From NCBI GenBank assembly GCA_905221615.1, contig CAJNDT010001251.1, positions 1-64,000 of the forward strand: 64,000 nt of DNA, read 5' to 3'. Under the pieces are notes generated by a model. The model did not search any database. It was not told the DNA's origin and saw only the letters and a program-made list of their open reading frames with translations. Below, piece after piece: positions 42,873-54,462 of this stretch; position 1 is the stretch's first letter, and each line of letters opens with the position of its first letter. The stretch comes from Symbiodinium sp. CCMP2592. Lineage: Eukaryota; Sar; Dinophyceae; Suessiales; Symbiodiniaceae. A program made the position numbers and the translations under genes.

Positions 42873-44779
42873 GAACGTTGTAGGGTTGGGCGTGTACGGG
42901 AAAAGGGTTTCTGCCACATGAAACCCCTGAACAAAGCGTAGGGAACCCGTAAGGAAACAGGCATGAAACCCGTCACCGTATGTACCCTGATCAAGGAAGA
43001 CATGAAACGATACAAAGGCTTCCAAAACCCCTATGAAGCCCTACTCCCCAAACCAGCTTGAGTAAAATGTGGGGGGCAGCTCGAGGTACAAAAGTCGATC
43101 CAGCTGCCGCCACTAGCAGCTCTACCACGAGATGTGCCTTGTGGTGCTTCGGGTTTAGGGTATGATATCTCTGGTGTTAATGTGCTTAAAGCAGGGCTAA
43201 AGGCATACAAGAAGGGCTCCACAAGGTCATATTTGTAGCTGACAAGGTAAGCTGGTTCATGAGGTCGCCTCCTGGGCTTTGGACAAGAAGCACCCTTAGG
43301 GTTTAGGGTTTAGAGGGTTCAGGGGTTTAGGGTTTGGGTTCGGGTGCTTCTGATTGAGAGCTCGGGGACAAAATCTTGGACCCACCTCTCCAAGCACTTA
43401 GGCCACCTTAACCGTCCGTTTGAGTTGCAGTGGCTGTTGTGACTGCTTTTACTTGCCTTGTTGTTGCGATAGGTGCGGTGTTGTTTGCCCCTACCGTCGC
43501 AAGTCTATGTCACCACCACAGCGCTACCGGAAATCTCAAGCCACAATACGCCAAAATTGCCTCAGACCCATGGTCCTGAAGAAAAGGTGAGTGCGCAAGC
43601 CCTGTAAGCCAAAAGAGGAAAACCAGAGCTCCTCAAGAATTAACGTTTATGGTTCAGCCTTAGGATGTTACGGTTCAGGGTTTATTTTAAGGTTCAGGCC
43701 ATACACCTTGAGGCATTGAAGTGTAGGGTCTGGCCGTTTTCCCAGGTAATCACTTGACCTCCTGACTACGGTTTCAACTTGAAGGAGGGGAAAATCGGAA
43801 AGACTGGCACTGCTGGGCAACCTATAAGTTAGGGCTCGGATTTTGGGCTACATTTAGAACTAGAACTATACTGAGCTTGGGACACCAGCGAAAATCATGA
43901 TTTTAGCCGTCTCGTAAGGGGTTATAGCGGCCCAAAAGTAAGAATTATTTCTAAGTGCCCCTAAGAGAAGCCTGAAAAGCCTGTCTGTGCACTATGATAT
44001 AGCAGCAAACCTCCTCTCATGTAGGGAAAACCCTTACACTGAGTTCAAGCCCTCCTTGGCACCAAGAAGATGTGCTCAGCTGGTACCATACACCCTAATC
44101 CTAAACCTTAAACCTTTAAACCGGCCTTAATTCCCAAACCCCGAACGAACACCCAGACCTGCCTCCAGCGGGATGGCAGCAAAACGCTCGAAGTCCTTCA
44201 CGATTCGAGGTTAGGTCTTCTGCATTTAGGACTTAGTCGGTTTAGAGCTTTGGGTTCGAGGTTAGGTCTTCTGCATTTAGCGCTTAGCAACGATTTCATT
44301 GTACAGGGACTATGAAGGGACGCTCTTACTGGGTGTTCAAGCTTGAAGCCTCCATTTATGGTGGTTTGGTACATAAACAGTCCGATCCCCGATGAGCTAC
44401 AGATCTGGCTTGTGAGTTTCCAGGGTTAGGCTTTGCCCTAAACAAGCCATCAGCCTGAACCCTAAAAAGCCCAAAGCGCTGTATTAGGCTTCGACTTTGG
44501 TTCTGGGGCTGCAAGTTGTCAGCCTTCTCCTTTTGGACTTGGCTGCTGGCATCACGTGTGGCAGGCGACATCTCTATCACTCCCGTAGAAGCATAAACCC
44601 TAAACCCCTAAACCCAAACCCTAAAAGCAGTTGCGGCTGGCCGGCATGGCAGAACTATCTGTCTGTCTATCCGCCTCATGTCATGTGTGCGCATGCTCAC
44701 ATGGCGAATACACCATTGAACGCACACCTAAGCACCGAAATGCAAGACCACAGTTAATGAAAACAGAGATACATAGGCA

Positions 44780-44784
44780 CGTAC
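44780..44784. repeat. Target-site duplication CGTAC (left)
   Basis: CGTAC directly precedes the left LTR and is repeated directly after the right LTR (53418-53422). Five base pairs is the usual duplication size for copia-type integrases. Confidence 0.9.
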
Positions 44785-44968
44785 TGCGAAAGTACACTAG
44801 TCCAGAATGCGCACCAAACTACCCTAAAGTAATTCCGTGCACAAGCTCACACGACTTAGACCAAAGTAACCCTGAAGTTCAGCAGCGCCTTTTCTCGTAG
44901 GGCAAAGTGGTCTTGAGCCAACGACGGTTGGCAAAGTCTGGGGGAGAAAGGGAGGTGTTATTTTCACA
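44785..44968 (-). repeat. 3' long terminal repeat
   Basis: 184 bp, base-for-base identical to 53234-53417 by eye. On the minus strand it starts TGTGAAAATAACACCTCCC and ends CTTTCGCA. It holds five copies of ACTTT in the sense direction. Transcription signals are not recognisable; dinoflagellates lack a canonical TATA box. Confidence 0.95.
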
Positions 44969-44978
44969 CGCCTCCTCG
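44969..44978 (-). other. Polypurine tract
   Basis: On the sense (minus) strand CGAGGAGGCG directly precedes the 3' LTR. A purine-rich stretch here is the standard plus-strand primer of LTR elements. Short and interrupted by cytosines, so moderately supported. Confidence 0.6.
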
Positions 44979-44991
44979 AGATTAAAGTTAA

Positions 44992-45311
44992 CTACTTTAT
45001 TCTCGCAAAGTACAATAACACATAAAAGTGTACATGTACATGTGTGAGCTCACGGCCAAAGTTTTGCAAAGCAGCTGCTCGGAGAAAGTTGCAACGAGGT
45101 CTCCTATCTACAACCTCAAAAGTTGACTTGTAAAAGTAAGCGTTCGTAGTGCTCGTGGTGCAAAGTGTCGTGACTGCGCACGGCACATCAAAGTGCAGCG
45201 TGGCCCAAAAGTGGTTGGCCCATCTAAGTGCAGCAACCAAAGTGGCACCAAGCGTCAAAAGACGCCGAAAAGTGTGCTGTTGGCCCAACCTCGAAAGGCG
45301 AAAAGTGGCCT
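44992..45311 (-). other. Open 3' region of the copia element, coding status unclear
   Basis: A ~106-codon frame is open from the stop of the preceding ORF to near the LTR but has no in-frame ATG at its beginning (only GTG). It is basic and Arg/Phe/Leu-rich and carries ACTTT at the same density as the rest, so openness may simply reflect that pattern. It could be a 3' untranslated region. Confidence 0.3.
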
Positions 45312-46265
45312 TCACAACCTCGCAGGGCGCGTCAAAGTTGACGGCGTAGCGCCAGCGAGGGGCACCCAGCCCTCGGGCATATCCTCACAAAGTTGGTACA
45401 CCTCTGGGAGGATCGGCAGGTGCATCAGTCGAAAGTGACGACACTGCACACCATATGTACCATCAAAGTAGCGATTGAGATCGCCGACCAAAGTGTACGG
45501 TGCCTGGCCAAAGTGTCTCACCACGCAAAAAGTCAGAAAAGTAGGCTGCATTGGGATCTGCAAAGTCGCGACTTTCACCAGAAAGTCCACGTACCTCCTG
45601 TTCCAAATCCTGGCCTGTCCACTTCCAAAGTTGACTGCCAACCAATGTTGAGTTGGTCGGAAGCCAAACGTAGCGATTTCTTCATTGGCAGCAAAAGGAA
45701 AAGTCACTCCCTGCATCTGAGAAATCGACAGCTGGAAAGTGTAGAAAAGATAAGCCGACCGTGGGCTGAAGGAAATGTTCAGGCAATTCTCCAAAGTACC
45801 CACCACATCCTGAAAGTGAACTGTAAAAGTTCCACTCTGGCGGGCAGCGGTCAAGGCTCTATCCAAAACGCTCATTGGCAAAGTAAGATATAACATGAAG
45901 GGCGACCATGCCGAAGGATCGCCTGGCAAAGTGCTCCCCGGACTCACATGGAATACCCAGAAAAGTTGACTGCGCATCAACATGTAAAGTTCGGGTGCCG
46001 TCATGCTTGGCGACACCGGGCTCAACCCAGGGAAAAGTATCGACTTTCCCAGGACAAAGTTGTTGTCAAAAGTTGTCCCAGGGCGAAACAACTGCTCCAT
46101 CTGGCGGCCACCAAAAAGCATCTCAAGCATGAGCTGCAAAGTGCCCCAAAAGCCAAAGTTCGAAAAGTCAGGGACAAAAGTCCCCTGACCAAAACCATGG
46201 CCAGGCCGTGGCCGCTCAATCGATGGCGGCAAAGTGGCAGGCGGCCTCAAAGTCTTTGGCGCCAT
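45312..46265 (-). CDS. Accessory ORF of the copia element, 317 aa, unknown function
   Basis: The ATG at 46265 overlaps the TGA of the preceding ORF as TGATG, an arrangement used elsewhere for termination-reinitiation. The protein has mixed composition, rich in Phe, Leu and Pro, with segments such as LYMLMRSQLFWVFHVSP and YLFYTFQLSISQMQGVTF and without long low-complexity runs, so it looks like a folded protein. I see no signal peptide and no recognised domain. Some plant copia lineages (for example Sireviruses) carry an envelope-like ORF at this position, but I see no similarity that would justify that name. The frame is intact for 317 codons in a young element, which argues for function. The coding strand carries ACTTT about every 31 nt, in all three frame positions. 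Confidence 0.6.
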   Translation of the reverse strand: MAPKTLRPPATLPPSIERPRPGHGFGQGTFVPDFSNFGFWGTLQLMLEMLFGGRQMEQLFRPGTTFDNNFVLGKSILFPGLSPVSPSMTAPELYMLMRSQLFWVFHVSPGSTLPGDPSAWSPFMLYLTLPMSVLDRALTAARQSGTFTVHFQDVVGTLENCLNISFSPRSAYLFYTFQLSISQMQGVTFPFAANEEIATFGFRPTQHWLAVNFGSGQARIWNRRYVDFLVKVATLQIPMQPTFLTFCVVRHFGQAPYTLVGDLNRYFDGTYGVQCRHFRLMHLPILPEVYQLCEDMPEGWVPLAGATPSTLTRPARL

Positions 46266-46657
46266 CACGGCTGCGGGTCACGCCCACGACCGAAAAGTCT
46301 TCTCAAAAGTTGGCGGAAAAGTCTCCGAAGGAAACCGCCAAAGTTCACGATCTCGGGGGCCACAAAGATGGCCAAATTAGTAAGGCCCCAAAGTGCCAAA
46401 AGGGCCAGAAGCACCACCCAGACAAAGTCCGTGGAGTGGAAAACTGGCGGTAGCAATGGCACACCAGAGTTCTCAAAGTCACTCCGGTCCAAAAGTGGCC
46501 TCCTGCTCACAGAGGCGGGTGTGGAGCAAAGTTCACTGCCCCGCTGTCCAAACCCAAAGTCGAACTGGGGATCAGACGCTCTTTGCAACAAAAGTCGCAA
46601 AAGTCGAACCTCACCGTCCGTGAGAGGCGGCTCTTGCGCAAAGTTCTGTTGCGCCAT
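46265..46657 (-). CDS. Accessory ORF of the copia element, 130 aa, single membrane span
   Basis: Starts at ATG 46657 (MAQQNFAQEPPL); another ATG lies 15 bases upstream at 46672, and the frame is open back to 46804. Residues about 79-100 (FVWVVLLALLALWGLTNLAI and on) form a clear transmembrane helix. An Arg-rich tail follows (RRLFRQLLRRLFGRGRDP). Small membrane protein with a basic cytoplasmic-type tail; function unknown. Its stop overlaps the next ORF's start (TGATG). It is separated from the end of pol by about 550 nt that contain dense ACTTT motifs and a 16-bp direct repeat. How it would be translated is unclear: a spliced subgenomic RNA or reinitiation are both possible. Confidence 0.55.
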   Translation of the reverse strand: MAQQNFAQEPPLTDGEVRLLRLLLQRASDPQFDFGFGQRGSELCSTPASVSRRPLLDRSDFENSGVPLLPPVFHSTDFVWVVLLALLALWGLTNLAIFVAPEIVNFGGFLRRLFRQLLRRLFGRGRDPQP

Positions 46658-47047
46658 TACGCAAAGTCTCATGCACTGAGGCAGAAAGTTGCCAGTGCAA
46701 CACAAAGTCAGACAGCCATGGCATGCGCAGCGAGCGAAAGACCGAAGTAAAGTGAAAACGGTTGCGGCGAAAAGGCGCAAAGTTAAAACCAAAACCCACG
46801 ACAAAACCCGAACACCCTGAACGGGAAAGTCAAGTGAGCTTACATATGTACATTAAAAGTGGTGCCGTAGCACCTCAAAACCATCATCGGAAAAGTCATC
46901 CACCATCAAGGTTTCACGGTAAAAGTTTCTTCCTTTTCGGAACGGAGAAAACGGAAAACAGAAAGGTCACCTTCAAAGTTGGTTCCGGAAAACTGAAAGT
47001 TCCTAAATCGAGCGAAAGTCGAAGACATGTCGAGACTGCACAAGCAA

Positions 47048-47079
47048 GCAAAAGTACATGTCCGCAAAAGTACATGTCC
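47048..47079 (-). repeat. 16-bp tandem direct repeat in copia spacer
   Basis: Two perfect copies of GCAAAAGTACATGTCC (plus strand) followed by diverged TACATGTCCGC copies to about 47106. Each unit includes one AAAGT (ACTTT in sense). It may show how the motif multiplies locally. Confidence 0.7.
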
Positions 47080-47205
47080 GCACAAGCATGAAAAATACAT
47101 GTCCGCAAGAACGTGATTCTCTCAGCTCTCAAAGTCTTCTTCTCTCTCATCTGGGTTCTTCTGGGGAAGATGATGAGTGGCAAAGTCCAACCCGAGATGG
47201 GGTGG

Positions 47206-50200
47206 CTAAACCTCAAACCCGAAAGTAGGAAGATGGCGGTGCAAAGTATCCTTCGCGATGTACTTCGTAAGGATATCTGCTGGGTTCAAAGTACCAAGAA
47301 CTTTCTTAATCCTAACCATACCAGAAGCAACAAGTTCTTGCACATAAAGATATCGTAACTCTACATGCTTCGTCTTGCGGCTGGCGCCAAAACGTGAGGC
47401 AATACTTTTGCCAACGTTGCTGTCTGTAAAAACACAAAGGTTAGCCTTCTGAAAGATCTTGCTCTCTTCCACCAAAGACCTCACAAAAAGAGCGTCAGCA
47501 GTACCAGAGCCTATAGCGTAAAGTTCTGCCTCTCCACTCGAGAGGGCCACAGTGGCCTGGGTCCTGCTGTGCGAAAGTATATTCGCCCCGAGCACAAAGA
47601 GGGAAACTCCTGAAGTGGAGCGTCGGGTGTCGTGGCATCCTGCCCAATCGCTGTCAACAAAAATGTTGATGTCTATTGCTTTGTGCTGCGGTGAAAGTGA
47701 GAGGGTTGGTTGCAGTTTCTGCTCAAAGTGCTTTGTTCCTGCCAGGTACTTCAAAAGATGCTTGACCTTTGTTTCGTGTTCTGTGGTCGGTGCAGAAAGT
47801 CCTCGGCTCAACTCCTTGACAGCATACATGATGTCAGGGCGCACGCTGGAAAGCCACAAAAGTTGGCCCACAGCGCGCCGGTAGCGCTTGTGATCCTCAG
47901 GGTCCAAAGGTTCACAGTCGAGCTGCTTCCTCAAAGCATCTGTTCCTGGCGCAAGTGCCTGCCGGCACTGTTTCAAACCGTAAAGCTCTAGCATCGTATC
48001 AATGTAGGATGGGCTCATTCCTACAGAGATGAAAGTGGAGGTGCGCTTCAGGTTGCGGCCTAGAAACGACGAACTCTGACCTTCATCCAAAGTACCTGTC
48101 ACCTTAAGCAACAAGTCCTTCTGAAGATCCCGGATCAAAGTCGAAACATCAGCCCGCGAACCGAAAAACATCAAGTCATCCACATACGCCAGAACGTAAA
48201 GTTGCTTGCTGTCATGTACATAAAGGTTCGGGTCCGACTTCATGCGTCGAAAGCCGTTCTTCTCCATGACAGATGCAAAGTGCTGCTGCCAAAGCTTAGG
48301 GCTGTGCTTAAGTCCGTAAAGGGCTTTCTTGAGCTTCCACAAAGTGCGGCCCTCTGGATAGAATTCCAGGGGAGGAATAACATAAAAGTCACCATCGACC
48401 AGGGCATGAAGGAATGCCGTCGAAATGTCTCCGATCGAGATGTGCCATCCCTTCGCAACAGCCAAAGTCAACAACAGCCGAAGTGTGATCAAGGACGGGG
48501 TCGAGGCGTAAGTCTCATCCTTGTCTTCCACAAGTTGAGTGTAACCTCGCCCAACAATCCTACAGCGCACAGTCCCGTCAGGCTTGCGCACTTTAACCCA
48601 CTTCGTGGAAATTGCAGACCGCAAAGTCTCCTCCGAGACCGACTCAACTGAGACTTCGTCGAACACGTCAAAGTCACGCATCGACTTCATCTCTTTTGTC
48701 ATGCCTGCAGCTTCCTCTTCACGTGTGAACTCGGTCTGGTACCAAATGTGCGGATTCTCAAGTGTCTTCATCAACAAAAGTTCTTTCTCATCTTGATTCA
48801 CCGACACCGGTACTTCAAGGTCCTGCTTTGTTGTCACAGCAGAGACACGAAAGTCACACACGCGAAAGCGCTTCTTGGTCTTCGCAAAAGTTACGCTGGC
48901 CATTCTCTGCACCTTGCTTGTCCCAACAGGCAAAGTCTCCGACGTACGCTTTGTCGGAGAAGAAGCAGACGCCTCCTCAAGTCGAGGCCGTGTAGCCGCA
49001 GGTTGCGGCAAAGCTGCTTCCGTTGCGGACCGTGGTAGGCCCTGTGCTTGCTGGTCCAAAGTGACGTGCGGTGGCTCAAAGGTGTCAAGGTCAGGAGGCG
49101 TAGCCAAAGACTCCAAGTCCGACAAGTCGTCTCTTGGCGGTACCGCCTCTGGCTCATCACCGCCAAAGTCGTCACCAAGCAAGTCTTCAACTTCTTGCAA
49201 AGCTTCTTGTGCAAGTGGCTCAGTCGACTCGTGTTGCTCAAAGTTCGAAAGGTCTGCTGCTGTCGCCTCCTCGGACCGCTTGGCTTGAGGAAAGACAAAA
49301 GTGTCCGTCTCAGCCTTCGAACCGGTGGGGTCCCAAGGACGCGCAGAGATCGACTGCAAAAGTGCAAGGTCGGCTTGCCGGGAGGGCGGGTGGCGCTTGA
49401 CACTGCGGGTCTTAAAGACGCCGGTGGCGTCAGCAACAAAGTGCTGATCAGACTCAGTGTCCTTGCCAAGCCAAACACCAGGCACAAAAGCTGCACGGCC
49501 CTTCTGCGGATGCGGCTTGCGGAAAAGTACTGTCTCTCCAAAGCGACAGATAAAGCCGGCATACTTCTTACGCCAGCGCCGCTCAAAAGCCGTCGTTCCT
49601 TCCGCGTTGCAAAGGTAACGGTTCACAAGCCACTGCGCGTGACGCACAAGCCAAGTAAACAAAGCCGAGTGCACCGAAAGGTCCACGTCAAAGCGCTCAA
49701 GTATGTCAAGGCGCAAAGCTTTGATCTGGCCGTACAAAGTGGCCTGCATGTTACCGACGCTGCCTTGCGCTTGTTTCCAACCAACGGGCGTCTTTCGAAA
49801 GGAAAGTCCACCAACCTCACCAGTGACAGAAGTTGCAATAGCGAGGAGGGCGGGTTCGGGGTCCGCTTGCAACACACCGAAAGTTCTGCCCGTTTCAAGC
49901 ACAAAGCGACGAAGTTCAGCCTGTGAATAAGGTGTGCGGGCCTTGGTGGGGATCACAACCGAAAGTGCCATGCCGGAAAGAACATCGACAACATTCAAAA
50001 TCGTGATCTGTTCCTCACCAGGCTTGTCGCCAAGAAAGCTAAAGTCCATCTGCAGCACAGGCTGCTTCAGGGAAGGTCTGCGACTCTTAGCCTGTTTGCT
50101 CTTGGAACGCACACAAATTTCACACCAGGGCTTAAACGGCAAGTGTGTCAACTCGTGTTCAAGCCGCTCCGTCAAAGTTGGCTCGCCAGGCTGTTTAAGC

Positions 50201-53190
50201 CCGCGGGGGCGACGCGCAACATAGTCAGGAGCTTCTGGCTCGCACTCAACAAGTTGCAAGTCTGCCTTCTCAAAACAAGTGGCGCCGACAAACGGAGAGC
50301 TGATCAAAGTGGCGCCGCGCTTGCGCCAATTGTCAGCATGCCAAAAGGGCACTTCTTCCGTGTTTGGCCTCACAACCAAAGTCATGCGGCCGTCGCCAAG
50401 CTGCTCTTCAAAGTGCGGATCCTCAGGCACAAAAAGTGTGGTCCGCTGTTCGTAGTGGACACGCACCCAGCAAGACGGAAAGTCAAGCCACAAGTCGTGC
50501 GTGTACGGCTGGCCTGTTGCCGGGTCCTTCTCCAAAAGTTGTTCAAGCAAAGCCTTCCGAAAGTCTTCCAGCGTTCCTGAAGAAGTCTGCTCAAGGCGCA
50601 GACGGAAAGTGTCCTCGGTGCTTTGTTCCTTGAGGCCTTTAGTGGGTTGCTTGAAAAGTGGTTGTGGGGCCTCTGCTAAAGGTTCCTGCTGCTGTTCAAG
50701 TGGTTGTGGTTTGCGTGCAGGTGTGGGTTCAGGTAAAGTTGTCTGTTTTCCAACCAGCTTGCGGCCAGTGGGCTTGGAGGAAAGTTTAAAAACAGTCTTG
50801 CCAACAAAGCGTTCAGGAGCAGGCCCTTTAGGGTTCTCCGCTTTACGCCAGTTGTCGGTGAAAGTCTCTTTTCTGCCATCTGCGTACTCAAAGTAGGTTA
50901 CGCGTTCATCCGAAAGGTCCTTCAGGTCTACAGGGCGATCTTTCGTTCCTTCGGGAGAAAAGAAAGTAGCTCTCGCTCTTTTGTGTATGCGGGTCAAAGT
51001 GTTACCCGAGAGCTCCCATTTATCAATGTGATACTGAACGACAGGTCTAAAGACGGGGGCCACTATGGTACCTTGCGCGCTCTGTGTGTGAAAAGTGTTA
51101 CACACAACCTCAAACTCTTCTCGGTTGAAAGGTGCCAAAGTGGGCCTCAAGAAAAGAAGTGAACCATGCCTAGTGATGGGCACCTTGTGTCCATCAGGTG
51201 TTTCCAAAGTGTTCGCCTTCTTAGAAGAAAGGTTCACGTCAAAGCCTGACCTCAAAAGTCTGCCAACTGACACCACACAGTAGGGAACGTCGCAAACGTA
51301 GAAGTGTAGGAAACAGGGCTGGCCCTCAAAGTCAACCTTCACAAGTCTCCTTCCAAAGACCGTCAAAGGCTGACCCGAAATGCTCCTCAAAGGTGGAGCT
51401 TTCCCTGTGAGTGGCAAAAGTGGCCACTCCGAGGCAAAGTCCTTCGGGCAACAGTGAGTTGCAGCACCTGAATCAAAGAGGATCCACGGCTCGGTGTCCT
51501 CCAAAGTCGAAGCAATCAAATGCTCCTCCAAAGCAACATCCTTGAAAGTCGTATTCAAATTCTTAAGATCAAGATCCCCAACACTGAAAAGTCGTTGGTT
51601 CTCCTCCGTGCGACCATTCAAGGAGAAAGTCTCAAGCGGTGCCATACAGGCCGTAGGCTCAAAGTTCTCACACTCTCCGAAACCACCAAAGCTGAAGTCT
51701 ACAACTCCATTCGTCATCCCATCAACTCTGAAAGTGTTCCCCAAACCAAAGTTGCCGAGAACAACAGCCGACATGAGCAAAGTGCTCGGGCTGATGTTTG
51801 CTTTAGCTTTAGGCTTGGCTTTGGGGGTTGAAAGTCCAGGTGGTCCTTGCAAAGTCACAGCCGACACGGGCAAAGTTGCCGCGCCGCTTGACGAGGAAGC
51901 CTCTTCCTTGGGCTTCGCCAAAGTTTCGGCCTTCGCCGAAGGAGCAGCCTCTGAAGGCCAAGCTTCTGAAGTAAAGTCCGAAGACCAACCCCAAGGGTCA
52001 ACATCCCAGGACCAAGCATCCCAAGACCAAAGTTGATCATCCCAAGTCTGATCCCAACTGTTAGGGTCGTTGTAAAGTTCCGTGACCGCGTTCACAGCCC
52101 ATTCGGTCCAATCTGTCCAATCATCGGACTCACCAAAGTGATTCCAATCTCCTGCGTCCTCCGACGGGTAAAGTTCTTCACCTTCAACAGCTGAAACACG
52201 GTTCAACGGACAGTTGCTCGAAAAGTGACCTGTTTTACCACACGTCCAGCAAACCGAAGTAGAACCAGAAGTGGGCTTTCCTTTTCCTTTTCCTCTTCCT
52301 TTTCCTTTCATCATAAAGTTCCAATGTTGTCCTCCTTTTCCAAACGACTTCGAAAAGTCCTTTCCTTTTCCTTTTCCTTTTCCTTTTCCTTTTCCTTTTC
52401 CTTTCTTTCCTTTTCCTTTCCTTCCTTTTCCTTTCCACAAAGCTGCCGCTAAGGCACCAATGTCCATGGGAGCCGAGGCTCCACCAGCAAAAGTTGCATT
52501 CGCCGAAGTTTGTGCAACTGGATTCATCAAAAGTCGTGACCTATGGTACTCAAGGATAACTTCTCGAACCTGAGCATAAGTTGCCAAAGTTTGGGCATTC
52601 AACCTAAGGTGTTGTTGTAAAGCTCCAGAGGTTTTGTTCAGCAAAGTTGCAACAAGAACACCATCAGGCAAAGGTTGTCCTACTTGTCGTTCATATCTAC
52701 TCTTGATTGTCTCCCAAACATTAAAGTCCTGCTCAAATGTTGCTGGGTTGAACTTAAAGTCCAACAGCTGCGTCAAAAGTGACGTACTCCGCGTGGCTCC
52801 TGGCAGCGAGAACTTCTTGTAAAGTCTCCTCCATGTCTCAAAGCCGTTGCTGTCCTCGTTCTGACGAACAACAAGTTTCGCCGAATCTTTCACAAGTTGA
52901 GAAATCAGGTAATGTAGCTTTCGGGAGAAAAGTACTCGGTTGGCGGTCTGTTCCGGATCAACATCACCTGTGCCCAAAGTGACTGTTAGATCAGCATCTG
53001 TAAAGTCACCTTGCGCTGCCGTTCGCATTTCGGCATTGTCCACCAAAGTCACAGCACCTACCTCGAACATCGAAATGTACGCTTTAAAGTTCCATGACCA
53101 TTCTTCCCAGTCTGCTGGGTTCCCAGAGAAAGTCTCTGGCAGAGGAAGCCGAAGCTTCCCTGTAAAGTTGTCTTCACCTCCTAGCGCCAT
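47206..53190 (-). CDS. Copia Gag-Pol polyprotein, 1994 aa
   Basis: One uninterrupted frame from ATG 53190. Gag: residues 1 to about 330, with a Lys-Gly repeat (253-305) encoded by a CCTTTT microsatellite and a zinc knuckle C314-x2-C317-x4-H322-x4-C327. A Trp/Asp-rich linker follows. Protease: DSGAATH with Asp573. Integrase: His1012, His1016, Cys1023, Cys1026 zinc site; catalytic Asp1049 (QMDFS) and Asp1110 (LQADP); the position 35 residues on, where DD35E integrases have Glu, is Gly1146 (QGSVGNMQATL; codon at 49753-49755). RT: IGDISTAF with Asp1588, ALYGLKHSPKLW, and YVDD 1669-1672. RNase H: Asp1846, Glu1887, Asp1923, Asp1972. RT and RNase H look active. The integrase Glu loss is surprising in a copy this young. 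Gag and Pol are fused without frameshift or stop, as in many copia elements. Plus-strand ORFs over this interval are shadows. Confidence 0.95.
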   Translation of the reverse strand: MALGGEDNFTGKLRLPLPETFSGNPADWEEWSWNFKAYISMFEVGAVTLVDNAEMRTAAQGDFTDADLTVTLGTGDVDPEQTANRVLFSRKLHYLISQLVKDSAKLVVRQNEDSNGFETWRRLYKKFSLPGATRSTSLLTQLLDFKFNPATFEQDFNVWETIKSRYERQVGQPLPDGVLVATLLNKTSGALQQHLRLNAQTLATYAQVREVILEYHRSRLLMNPVAQTSANATFAGGASAPMDIGALAAALWKGKGRKGKGKKGKGKGKGKGKGKGKDFSKSFGKGGQHWNFMMKGKGRGKGKGKPTSGSTSVCWTCGKTGHFSSNCPLNRVSAVEGEELYPSEDAGDWNHFGESDDWTDWTEWAVNAVTELYNDPNSWDQTWDDQLWSWDAWSWDVDPWGWSSDFTSEAWPSEAAPSAKAETLAKPKEEASSSSGAATLPVSAVTLQGPPGLSTPKAKPKAKANISPSTLLMSAVVLGNFGLGNTFRVDGMTNGVVDFSFGGFGECENFEPTACMAPLETFSLNGRTEENQRLFSVGDLDLKNLNTTFKDVALEEHLIASTLEDTEPWILFDSGAATHCCPKDFASEWPLLPLTGKAPPLRSISGQPLTVFGRRLVKVDFEGQPCFLHFYVCDVPYCVVSVGRLLRSGFDVNLSSKKANTLETPDGHKVPITRHGSLLFLRPTLAPFNREEFEVVCNTFHTQSAQGTIVAPVFRPVVQYHIDKWELSGNTLTRIHKRARATFFSPEGTKDRPVDLKDLSDERVTYFEYADGRKETFTDNWRKAENPKGPAPERFVGKTVFKLSSKPTGRKLVGKQTTLPEPTPARKPQPLEQQQEPLAEAPQPLFKQPTKGLKEQSTEDTFRLRLEQTSSGTLEDFRKALLEQLLEKDPATGQPYTHDLWLDFPSCWVRVHYEQRTTLFVPEDPHFEEQLGDGRMTLVVRPNTEEVPFWHADNWRKRGATLISSPFVGATCFEKADLQLVECEPEAPDYVARRPRGLKQPGEPTLTERLEHELTHLPFKPWCEICVRSKSKQAKSRRPSLKQPVLQMDFSFLGDKPGEEQITILNVVDVLSGMALSVVIPTKARTPYSQAELRRFVLETGRTFGVLQADPEPALLAIATSVTGEVGGLSFRKTPVGWKQAQGSVGNMQATLYGQIKALRLDILERFDVDLSVHSALFTWLVRHAQWLVNRYLCNAEGTTAFERRWRKKYAGFICRFGETVLFRKPHPQKGRAAFVPGVWLGKDTESDQHFVADATGVFKTRSVKRHPPSRQADLALLQSISARPWDPTGSKAETDTFVFPQAKRSEEATAADLSNFEQHESTEPLAQEALQEVEDLLGDDFGGDEPEAVPPRDDLSDLESLATPPDLDTFEPPHVTLDQQAQGLPRSATEAALPQPAATRPRLEEASASSPTKRTSETLPVGTSKVQRMASVTFAKTKKRFRVCDFRVSAVTTKQDLEVPVSVNQDEKELLLMKTLENPHIWYQTEFTREEEAAGMTKEMKSMRDFDVFDEVSVESVSEETLRSAISTKWVKVRKPDGTVRCRIVGRGYTQLVEDKDETYASTPSLITLRLLLTLAVAKGWHISIGDISTAFLHALVDGDFYVIPPLEFYPEGRTLWKLKKALYGLKHSPKLWQQHFASVMEKNGFRRMKSDPNLYVHDSKQLYVLAYVDDLMFFGSRADVSTLIRDLQKDLLLKVTGTLDEGQSSSFLGRNLKRTSTFISVGMSPSYIDTMLELYGLKQCRQALAPGTDALRKQLDCEPLDPEDHKRYRRAVGQLLWLSSVRPDIMYAVKELSRGLSAPTTEHETKVKHLLKYLAGTKHFEQKLQPTLSLSPQHKAIDINIFVDSDWAGCHDTRRSTSGVSLFVLGANILSHSRTQATVALSSGEAELYAIGSGTADALFVRSLVEESKIFQKANLCVFTDSNVGKSIASRFGASRKTKHVELRYLYVQELVASGMVRIKKVLGTLNPADILTKYIAKDTLHRHLPTFGFEV
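52262..52438 (-). repeat. CCTTTT microsatellite inside gag (Lys-Gly repeat)
   Basis: Near-perfect (CCTTTT)n blocks on the plus strand at 52262-52310 and 52362-52438 encode alternating Lys-Gly in the Gag nucleocapsid region. Positive charge near the zinc knuckle fits RNA binding. Copy number is likely to vary between element copies. Confidence 0.85.
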
Positions 53191-53221
53191 GTTGTTCTAC
53201 CAAAGTTCCGTGGAGCTTTCA

Positions 53222-53233
53222 GCTCCGCTACCA
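53222..53233 (-). promoter_or_regulatory. Primer-binding site, initiator-Met tRNA-like
   Basis: Directly next to the 5' LTR, the sense strand reads TGGTAGCGGAGC. This matches the complement of the 3' end of initiator methionine tRNA (TGGTAGCAGAG-type) with one difference. Copia elements commonly prime minus-strand synthesis from initiator Met tRNA. Confidence 0.8.
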
Positions 53234-53417
53234 TGCGAAAGTACACTAGTCCAGAATGCGCACCAAACTACCCTAAAGTAATTCCGTGCACAAGCTCACA
53301 CGACTTAGACCAAAGTAACCCTGAAGTTCAGCAGCGCCTTTTCTCGTAGGGCAAAGTGGTCTTGAGCCAACGACGGTTGGCAAAGTCTGGGGGAGAAAGG
53401 GAGGTGTTATTTTCACA
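53234..53417 (-). repeat. 5' long terminal repeat
   Basis: 184 bp identical to 44785-44968. Sense start TGTGAAAATAACACC at 53417 and end CTTTCGCA at 53234. Adjacent to the primer-binding site on one side and CGTAC on the other. Confidence 0.95.
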
Positions 53418-53422
53418 CGTAC
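53418..53422. repeat. Target-site duplication CGTAC (right)
   Basis: Matches 44780-44784. Confidence 0.9.
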
Positions 53423-53613
53423 ATACAAACAAACCATACATACATACAGCCAGACAGACATGTATATAGACATATACACACCTATCCTTAAACCCGAAAC
53501 CCTAAACTCCCAGCCACTCAGCCACCCCGCAAAACCTCCACCACCCTTGCTTAAACTTCATAGAGATACACCCAAAACCCTGAACCCATGACCCTTAGCT
53601 CTCAGGCTGCAGC

Positions 53614-53720
53614 AATATAGGGGCCTTACTAATTAGAACAGGGCTTGGGGGCCCATACAACAATAACTATAATAAGGAACCCCCAAAGTAGTATAGGTAA
53701 GTTTTGAAGCCCCTATAGTA
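53614..53720. repeat. GGCCCCTATATTA-family MITE-like element, copy 7
   Basis: AATATAGGGGCCTTACTAAT with AGAACAGGGCTTGGGGGCCC at the left, then ATAATAAGGAACCCCCAAAG, ending AGCCCCTATAGTA. Same order as copies 1 and 4; 107 bp. Confidence 0.65.
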
Positions 53721-54462
53721 GGCCTGGAGTCTCCGTGTGGCAGCGCCGAATCGCTGCACTACCATCTCGGAGAGCCAGTTTTCCACGGGCATGGTTTCGG
53801 TGTTTAGGGCTTACATGCTCGGAGTTTAGGGTACAAAGTTTGCAGATTATGTGGCAAGGGTATAGGGTCTTCAGATTTTTCAGTTCAGGGTTTACTGTTT
53901 CGGGTTTTATGCTTTTAGGTGCGGGGGCAAGGGTGCAGAGGTTTCAGGCTTTGATCGTGTAGGGTCGGGGGGTGTAAAGGATTGGGCCTAAACCCTGCCT
54001 TATACAACACCGAATCCTTCCCTTATAGATTCAACGCCTTTAGCACCTGCAACCCCCTCATCCCCCAAAGCCCCATCAACTTTAAGAAACTCTGCTGTGC
54101 CTCCCTGCGAACAACCCCTACCACCTTAAAACAGGGGCCTAAAACATTGATCATTAATTATTATCCCAGTACCGTAAACTAGGACACTCGAAAGCCTTCT
54201 CAAGTCACCTTATAACACACTACAAAATTGACCCTCAAGAAACCATTCCAAACCCTTTAAAGCCCCACATTGCCTCTCGATCTCTGAAGAGTTTCGGCTG
54301 TTCGTCGCCTGAGAACCGTGTTGCATTGACATGGGCCAACTTAGGACCTTTTTGGGCTTTGAGTTTAAGCGCCTGAGACTCATACAAGGGCTTTCCACTA
54401 AAAAATTTACGGTTTGAGGGTTGAGTTGGTTAGCTACTTTCAGTAATTAGGCTTTACCCAAA

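Follow-up and report, generated by a model that had tools for sequence, protein, structure and literature searches.

The word and the element that carries it

The question raised by this locus is why one five-base word, ACTTT, recurs about every 50 letters along the sense strand of an entire retrotransposon, and what might read it. Within the window (the whole stretch of 64,000 nucleotides that was analysed), the element is a copia-type LTR retrotransposon by its LTR pair, target-site duplication (TSD), gag zinc knuckle and RVT_2 domain. It lies on the minus strand, where ACTTT corresponds to AAAGT as the window is written. Its parts are as follows.

44785-53417, minus strand: copia-type LTR retrotransposon, 8633 bp; 175 ACTTT on the sense strand, 6 on the other strand
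53234-53417, minus strand: 5' LTR (sense orientation), 184 bp; 5 ACTTT, 0 reverse
44785-44968, minus strand: 3' LTR (sense orientation), 184 bp, exactly the 5' LTR; 5 ACTTT, 0 reverse
44780-44784, unstranded: left copy of the TSD CGTAC, abutting the element edge
53418-53422, unstranded: right copy of the TSD CGTAC, abutting the element edge
53222-53233, minus strand: putative primer-binding site, adjoining the 5' LTR
47206-53190, minus strand: gag-pol open frame, 1994 aa without internal stop; 93 ACTTT
52207-52254, minus strand: CCHC zinc knuckle of Gag, residues 313-328
47947-48624, minus strand: RVT_2 reverse transcriptase domain, residues 1523-1748
46265-46804, minus strand: ORF C, accessory frame with a hydrophobic stretch (by eye); 18 ACTTT
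45312-46268, minus strand: ORF B, accessory protein of 317 aa from its ATG; 29 ACTTT
44969-46920, minus strand: 3' part of the element, densest in words (62 in 45001-46920)

ORF C and ORF B are downstream of gag-pol in the sense direction. As to an integrase ahead of reverse transcriptase in the polyprotein, Pfam named RVT_2 and zf-CCHC in the window's gag-pol and nothing else; PF00665 was present in the relatives P0042 and P0058. The closest named relatives, among the matches listed, were proteins of Symbiodinium microadriaticum and S. natans, and the host is accordingly a Symbiodinium-like dinoflagellate. The 12-mer of the putative primer-binding site also adjoins the LTR of L029, an element of the same genome described below. 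Direct-repeat families of at least 30 nt in 44000-54200 numbered three; one was the LTR pair and none was an array of the word. Telomere-like heptamers (TTTAGGG/CCCTAAA) were found 103 times in the 55.4 kb of flanking DNA, in both orientations, against about 7 by chance (e.g., 44586-44626), and 3 times within the element.

The word was recounted by program, and the figures that the sequence-only reading had given by eye were reproduced exactly: 62 AAAGT in 45001-46920 (ACTTT 2), 36 in 51481-53233 (ACTTT 0), 19 in 47206-48720 (ACTTT 3) and five, none reversed, in each LTR. That reading had placed the excess inside the element, and there it was found. The frequency in the flanks predicted 9.8 words per strand for the element, about 18 times fewer than the sense-strand count; the flanks held 62 AAAGT and 64 ACTTT, and 2-kb bins wholly outside the element held 0-8 words per strand. 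Equal strands or equal flanks had been named as outcomes against the claim, and the counts showed neither. ACTTT was the most over-represented of all pentamers in the element (z 50). One-mismatch neighbours stayed near background, the highest being GCTTT (28 vs 15.4) and ACTTG (24 vs 9.4) and the lowest ACTCT and ACTAT (1 each). The following base was uneven (G 79, T 46, C 31, A 19), but bases on both sides varied, and the unit is therefore five bases.

A codon-shuffled control had been set beforehand as the test, an absence of excess being the contrary outcome. Gag-pol held 93 words against 30.1 after synonymous shuffling (sd 4.0, maximum 41, n=500), ORF B 29 against 12.3 and ORF C 18 against 4.5; the 107-codon frame D was weaker, with 12 against 7.7, and its shuffles also attained 12. 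Because shuffling leaves far fewer words, protein sequence and codon usage are insufficient to account for them. The word covers LTRs, coding and non-coding DNA alike, and all three codon positions were used in gag-pol (40, 27 and 26), as had been noticed by eye. Also upheld was the earlier observation that density is lowest in pol: read in the sense direction, 300-bp intervals of the initial 3 kb held 4-8 words, those of the following 3.3 kb, which is pol, 3-5, and those of the 3' part 7-11. Spacing was far more even than chance: of the 174 gaps, none was shorter than 9 bases and 10 were shorter than 17, against about 16-17 and 44-46 in simulations at equal local density.

Conservation of the word among copies

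Copies were sought in the same genome (assembly of 1.098 Gb, 5383 contigs). The LTR-end pattern matched 90 sites (at most 3 mismatches), and 20 copies with two LTRs were fetched, whose LTR pairs were 98.4-100% identical; the ACTTT family is therefore young. All 20 carried the word, 162-177 times against 3-6 in reverse. Retention was compared in nine of the 20. The six most diverged (3.9-5.1%) kept 92-96% of aligned words intact against 78-82% of control pentamers, and three copies less than 2% diverged kept 97.7% vs 96.3%, 100% vs 95.7% and 96.7% vs 91.4%.

Synonymous third positions of gag-pol were then compared inside and outside words. Alignment of related copies had been proposed as a check, and words were indeed kept at synonymous positions: in the six diverged copies, changes inside words numbered 1/147, 1/147, 2/139, 3/147, 2/134 and 2/145 (0.7-2.0%), against 8-11% elsewhere. 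Summed over these copies, which share ancestry so that the cells are not independent, 11 of 859 cells had changed inside words and 919 of 10025 elsewhere. Ranked by synonymous change in two copies, ACTTT was second lowest of the 74 and of the 77 pentamers tested, behind TTTGA (0/48) and CTTTC (0/54), both of which can overlap ACTTT. Outside gag-pol the contrast was smaller, with 0.09-0.22 per base in words and 0.12-0.27 elsewhere; poor alignment of the accessory region is part of the reason. Purifying selection on the nucleic acid is thus well supported as what maintains ACTTT. The suggestion that selection acts on nucleic acid and not on protein was borne out by this comparison, by the even spacing and by the recurrence of the pattern with other words.

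The word was also present where copies differ most. In 17 of the 20, one or two stretches of 356-1644 bp gave no blastn alignment to the window copy; each held 9-44 words and no reverse word (e.g., in 3' stretches, 9 per 356 bp, 15 per 637 bp and 39-44 over 1.4-1.6 kb). Five copies (L012, L024, L025, L026 and L028) had gag-pol blocks 92-96% identical to the window's beside a 3' stretch that did not align; in L024 a short block was just 87% identical, and in L012, the one copy read in this respect, the stretch encodes a far-diverged ORF B. Diverged 3' regions beside near-identical gag-pol look like recombination between lineages. Two internal-deletion derivatives of about 1 kb and 2.5 kb, L004 (G000:C383) and L032 (G000:C1313:310900-313900), retained both LTRs and the word, and are likely non-autonomous passengers. 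L003 (G000:C383:96523-99552) is an element end with an LTR 87-89% like the window's; its non-aligning interior of 1.27 kb held 5-8 ACTTT per 250 bp, the reverse being almost absent.

Words of related families

Proteins of relatives (initially 120 of the 170 listed) were decoded by scoring all 1024 pentamers by the dipeptides that each forces in three frames. The null was obtained by shuffling residues within 60-residue blocks, with low-complexity stretches masked. ACTTT ranked first on the window's own protein; among 121 proteins the top word was ACTTT in 13, ACTTC in 15 and CAACA in 19. One of the 50 most distant proteins (P0071-P0120) gave p<0.01 and nine gave 0.015-0.045, and the null is therefore somewhat liberal. 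Among 29 further distant proteins (P0137-P0165), none fell below 0.01, three were at exactly 0.010 and four at 0.015-0.04. When a further set was decoded, ACTTT was the top word in 20 of 23 ORF B relatives.

ACTTC was predicted from proteins alone for a clade with roughly 50% identity to the window's element, and DNA was obtained afterwards. L029 (8063 bp, same genome) carried ACTTC 199 times against 3 in reverse, with none in about 0.9 kb past its right end; ACTTT stood at background in its 9-kb locus (7). A second copy, L031, 98.9% identical, had 198 against 6 in its locus. Of 82 words aligned between the ACTTT element and the ACTTC element, whose proteins are 51% identical, 12 coincided in position, so sites were not simply inherited. 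TF and TL dipeptides under the window's words fell from 28/40 in P0002 and P0003 to 6/37 in P0016.

For two groups around P0034, which form a more distant clade, pooled protein decoding gave ATTG as the top tetramer before any DNA was seen; an ACTGG-like first guess for this clade was discarded when the DNA gave ATTG. The pooled pentamer decode was less clean (AGATT first and GATTG second around P0034; AATTG first in the sister group). The loci L033, L034 and L035 held 279, 277 and 246 ATTG where about 30 were expected. Within its LTR boundaries, L034 had 264 against 24 in reverse; its edge was not clean, with 10 ATTG in 273 bp of left flank. All bases occur on either side of ATTG, and this word therefore has four letters. 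The ATTG copies were 97-98% alike and kept 95-97% of words against 88-92% of other 4-mers. Synonymous change was 1.7% vs 4.4% and 2.5% vs 5.0%, with several 4-mers lower, in copies too similar to make this a strong test. Gap coefficients of variation in the ACTTT, ACTTC and ATTG elements were 0.69, 0.58 and 0.57, against 1.03, 1.00 and 0.91 simulated.

Further words are predicted from proteins: CAACA and ACTG in other clades, an ATTC/ACTC-like candidate for P0013, and possibly AGCTT, to which the more distant relative P0062 (2358 aa) decodes. ACTTG was considered for the P0010 clade and dropped, the pooled decode ranking TACGT higher; no word is claimed there. Decodes of P0012, P0025, P0029, P0035 and P0040 were ambiguous (P0029 ranked ACTTT first at p 0.08). 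The reverse transcriptase (RT) tree was built from 62 segments; 66 had been offered (64 relatives from 165, the window's element and L029) and four were too short. Labelled with decoded words, ambiguous rows apart, it required one change each for CAACA, ACTTC and ATTG and two each for ACTTT and ACTG, with long outgroup branches whose joins are unsafe. Each word would thus mark one clade or two.

No such word appeared in L036-L038, which represent three distant copia families from this genome. Their best pentamers reached z 10.0, 7.8 and 9.1, against 50 and 64 in coded elements, or 5.1, 6.6 and 5.4 against 15.4 and 20.1 by synonymous shuffling; tetramers reached 9.5, 9.5 and 10.8 against 42.9 for ATTG, or 5.1, 6.2 and 5.6 against 11.6 by synonymous shuffling. 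As a control on pooled decoding, distant dinoflagellate copias gave AGGTA at z 7.4 (1.39x) and plants 3.9.

Proposed reader

A clade of dinoflagellate copia elements carries a family word of 4-5 bases over its whole sense strand, about one per 25-65 bases. These observations are tentatively read as a family-specific recognition code on the sense strand, whose likeliest reader is a protein of the element itself, such as Gag, acting on RNA. Under this proposal selection would hold the word exact, uphold its density and prevent gaps, while single sites are gained and lost. The reader would be the element's own protein, most likely part of Gag, acting on single-stranded sense RNA; it may coat and package its own RNA, excluding RNA of the host and of competing families. 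The roles that the sequence-only reading had put forward, a Gag-binding code, a transcription or chromatin signal and escape from host silencing, all stay candidates. One-strand bias (175:6, 199:3 and 264:24 for ACTTT, ACTTC and ATTG) together with cover from LTR to LTR fits full-length RNA, and three words in one nucleus favour element-encoded readers. Since the words follow the pol tree, each reader presumably changed along with its word. Held more loosely still is the extension that Gags of rival families read mutually distinct RNA address words of 4-5 bases by which particles would sort self from non-self RNA, the words changing only at deep pol forks and sometimes by a single base (ACTTT/ACTTC; ACTG/ATTG, where ACTG is predicted from proteins).

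Gag ranks first as candidate: coating calls for sites a few tens of bases apart, and words stood every 25-65 bases in the regions measured. The residue after the knuckle histidine was F in all seven canonical CCHC matches among 16 ACTTT-group Gags and T in all nine among 15 ACTTC-group Gags, a contrast of two clades that is no test. Retroviral zinc knuckles tend to favour exposed G, and the words are poor in G, which counts against this reading. ORF B is the second candidate. It has 23 homologues in the protein database (30-68% identity) and one in the ACTTC element L029 (28% identity, E 2e-14, profile probability 97.8); no Pfam match exceeded the cut-off. SPRSA and WNRRY are conserved stretches. 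Its structural model (mean pLDDT 71) has an alpha/beta core with weak structural neighbours, and the weak VIA neighbours are mostly what we take to be ADP-ribosyltransferase folds.

Five-base accessibility of the words was compared with that in 25 motif-fixed shuffles for each of two elements. Neither ACTTT (0.242 vs 0.259, sd 0.016) nor ACTTC (0.215 vs 0.220, sd 0.011) was more unpaired, and a hairpin or structured packaging signal was therefore not seen. Periodicity at 10.5 bases, which could hint at reading on DNA, was weak in the window's element (z 2.3, 16 periods tried) and was z -0.7 in L029.

Alternative explanations

That protein sequence or codon usage produces the words as a side effect is scarcely credible: they do leave dipeptide traces in the proteins, but the synonymous shuffles and the presence in all frames and in LTRs argue against it. 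Creation by biased mutation or replication, which the sequence-only reading had offered beside selection, is very improbable. Some replication-linked editing typically leaves strand asymmetry, which would suit this explanation. The even gaps and the nearly frozen synonymous sites in words stay unaccounted for. No single type of change could yield some 165 surplus sites, since the C-to-T precursors ACCTT, ACTCT and ACTTC have an expected sum of 26; one-step neighbours together were not depleted (176 seen vs 138 expected); and other families use other words. That modification or cleavage by the host (through 5-hydroxymethyluracil, methylation or an endonuclease) makes each family adopt a safe or marked word is improbable. 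Modified T is abundant in dinoflagellate DNA, and 5-hydroxymethyluracil is enriched over repeats of Breviolum; excerpted text of PMC11071213 gives it no sequence motif there. CAACA, one of the predicted words, lacks T on the sense strand, and different words in one nucleus fit a single host system poorly.

Two further explanations keep a reader and change its task or its target. ORF B or proteins of the host might read the word on RNA and thereby serve export, stability or translation, or help the RNA to evade silencing; this is possible and on the whole unlikely. Such a role shares with packaging the sense-strand bias and LTR-to-LTR cover, and is favoured by the 3' peak in word density and the conservation of ORF B. 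The coexistence of three words in one genome would, however, call for several host readers, and L012 has a far-diverged ORF B beside gag-pol 96% identical to the window's and the same word, so ORF B can change greatly without a change of word. Slightly less probable again is DNA anti-silencing of the VANC type, where an element protein (ORF B or another) would bind double-stranded DNA at the word and clear silent chromatin or bring in transcription, family words confining its action. VANC21 motifs are likewise short, dense, one-oriented and family-specific; the ACTTT element and the ACTTC element L029 both encode ORF B homologues; and in the related alga Breviolum copia ranks with the least accessible repeats (excerpted text of PMC11071213). 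VANC21 binds double-stranded DNA and also uses same-orientation arrays, so strand bias is no proof of an RNA reader. VANC motifs are, however, mainly non-coding and spread by tandem repeats, whereas the words here fill coding DNA and LTRs and, for ACTTT, differ between copies by base changes. Helical phasing was weak at most and not common to both families, and a binder of double-stranded DNA does not require a dense orientation bias. Packaging by Gag or another element-encoded protein stays the favoured, tentative reading.

Retroelement biology has long asked how the machinery of an element distinguishes its own RNA from other RNA. These elements offer a natural code with clear letters and at least three words in one nucleus, whose clade-wise changes can be compared with protein changes to locate the reader. 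Selection on nucleic acid can, moreover, fill a coding genome with a word that is readable from protein sequence alone.

Comparison with known systems

Dinoflagellate copia elements named in PMC5890265 share pol, the zinc knuckle and the host group; the excerpted text of that paper describes no word code. The nearest analogue found was the VANC21 target motif YAGTATTAY of Arabidopsis VANDAL21, which the excerpted text of PMC5735166 describes as nine bases long, closely packed in a single orientation and particular to one family; it is bound in double-stranded form, chiefly in non-coding regions that are often tandem repeats (the motif is also treated in PMC10398659). As far as these excerpts go, both systems use a short exact motif in many copies and one orientation, specific to a transposon family and diverging between related families. 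VANC21 is an element-encoded reader, where the reader of the copia words is a proposed one; its motif has 9 bases, is non-coding and has spread by tandem repeats, whereas the copia words have 4-5, occupy coding, non-coding and LTR sequence, are kept by selection on bases and are evenly spaced. VANDAL21 is a MULE DNA transposon with a VANC protein; the window's element is a copia whose ORF B reached no Pfam cut-off, and its words lie in coding frames and form no array.

No report of such a code was found in a search of the open-licence PMC literature, and packaging-signal papers listed from it included none on a whole-element word. The packaging signals dispersed along genomes of single-stranded RNA viruses, and the recognition of RNA by retroviral Gag, are alike in that repeated RNA sites let a coat protein recognise its own genome. 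Viral signals of this kind are usually structured and degenerate; the copia word is exact and linear, and accessibility against shuffles gave neither ACTTT nor ACTTC a common structural context. The DNA uptake sequences of Neisseria and Haemophilus resemble the copia word in being short, exact and dispersed over genes and spacers as a tag of self; they differ in standing on both strands and in serving the uptake of free DNA by bacteria, whereas the copia word marks one strand.
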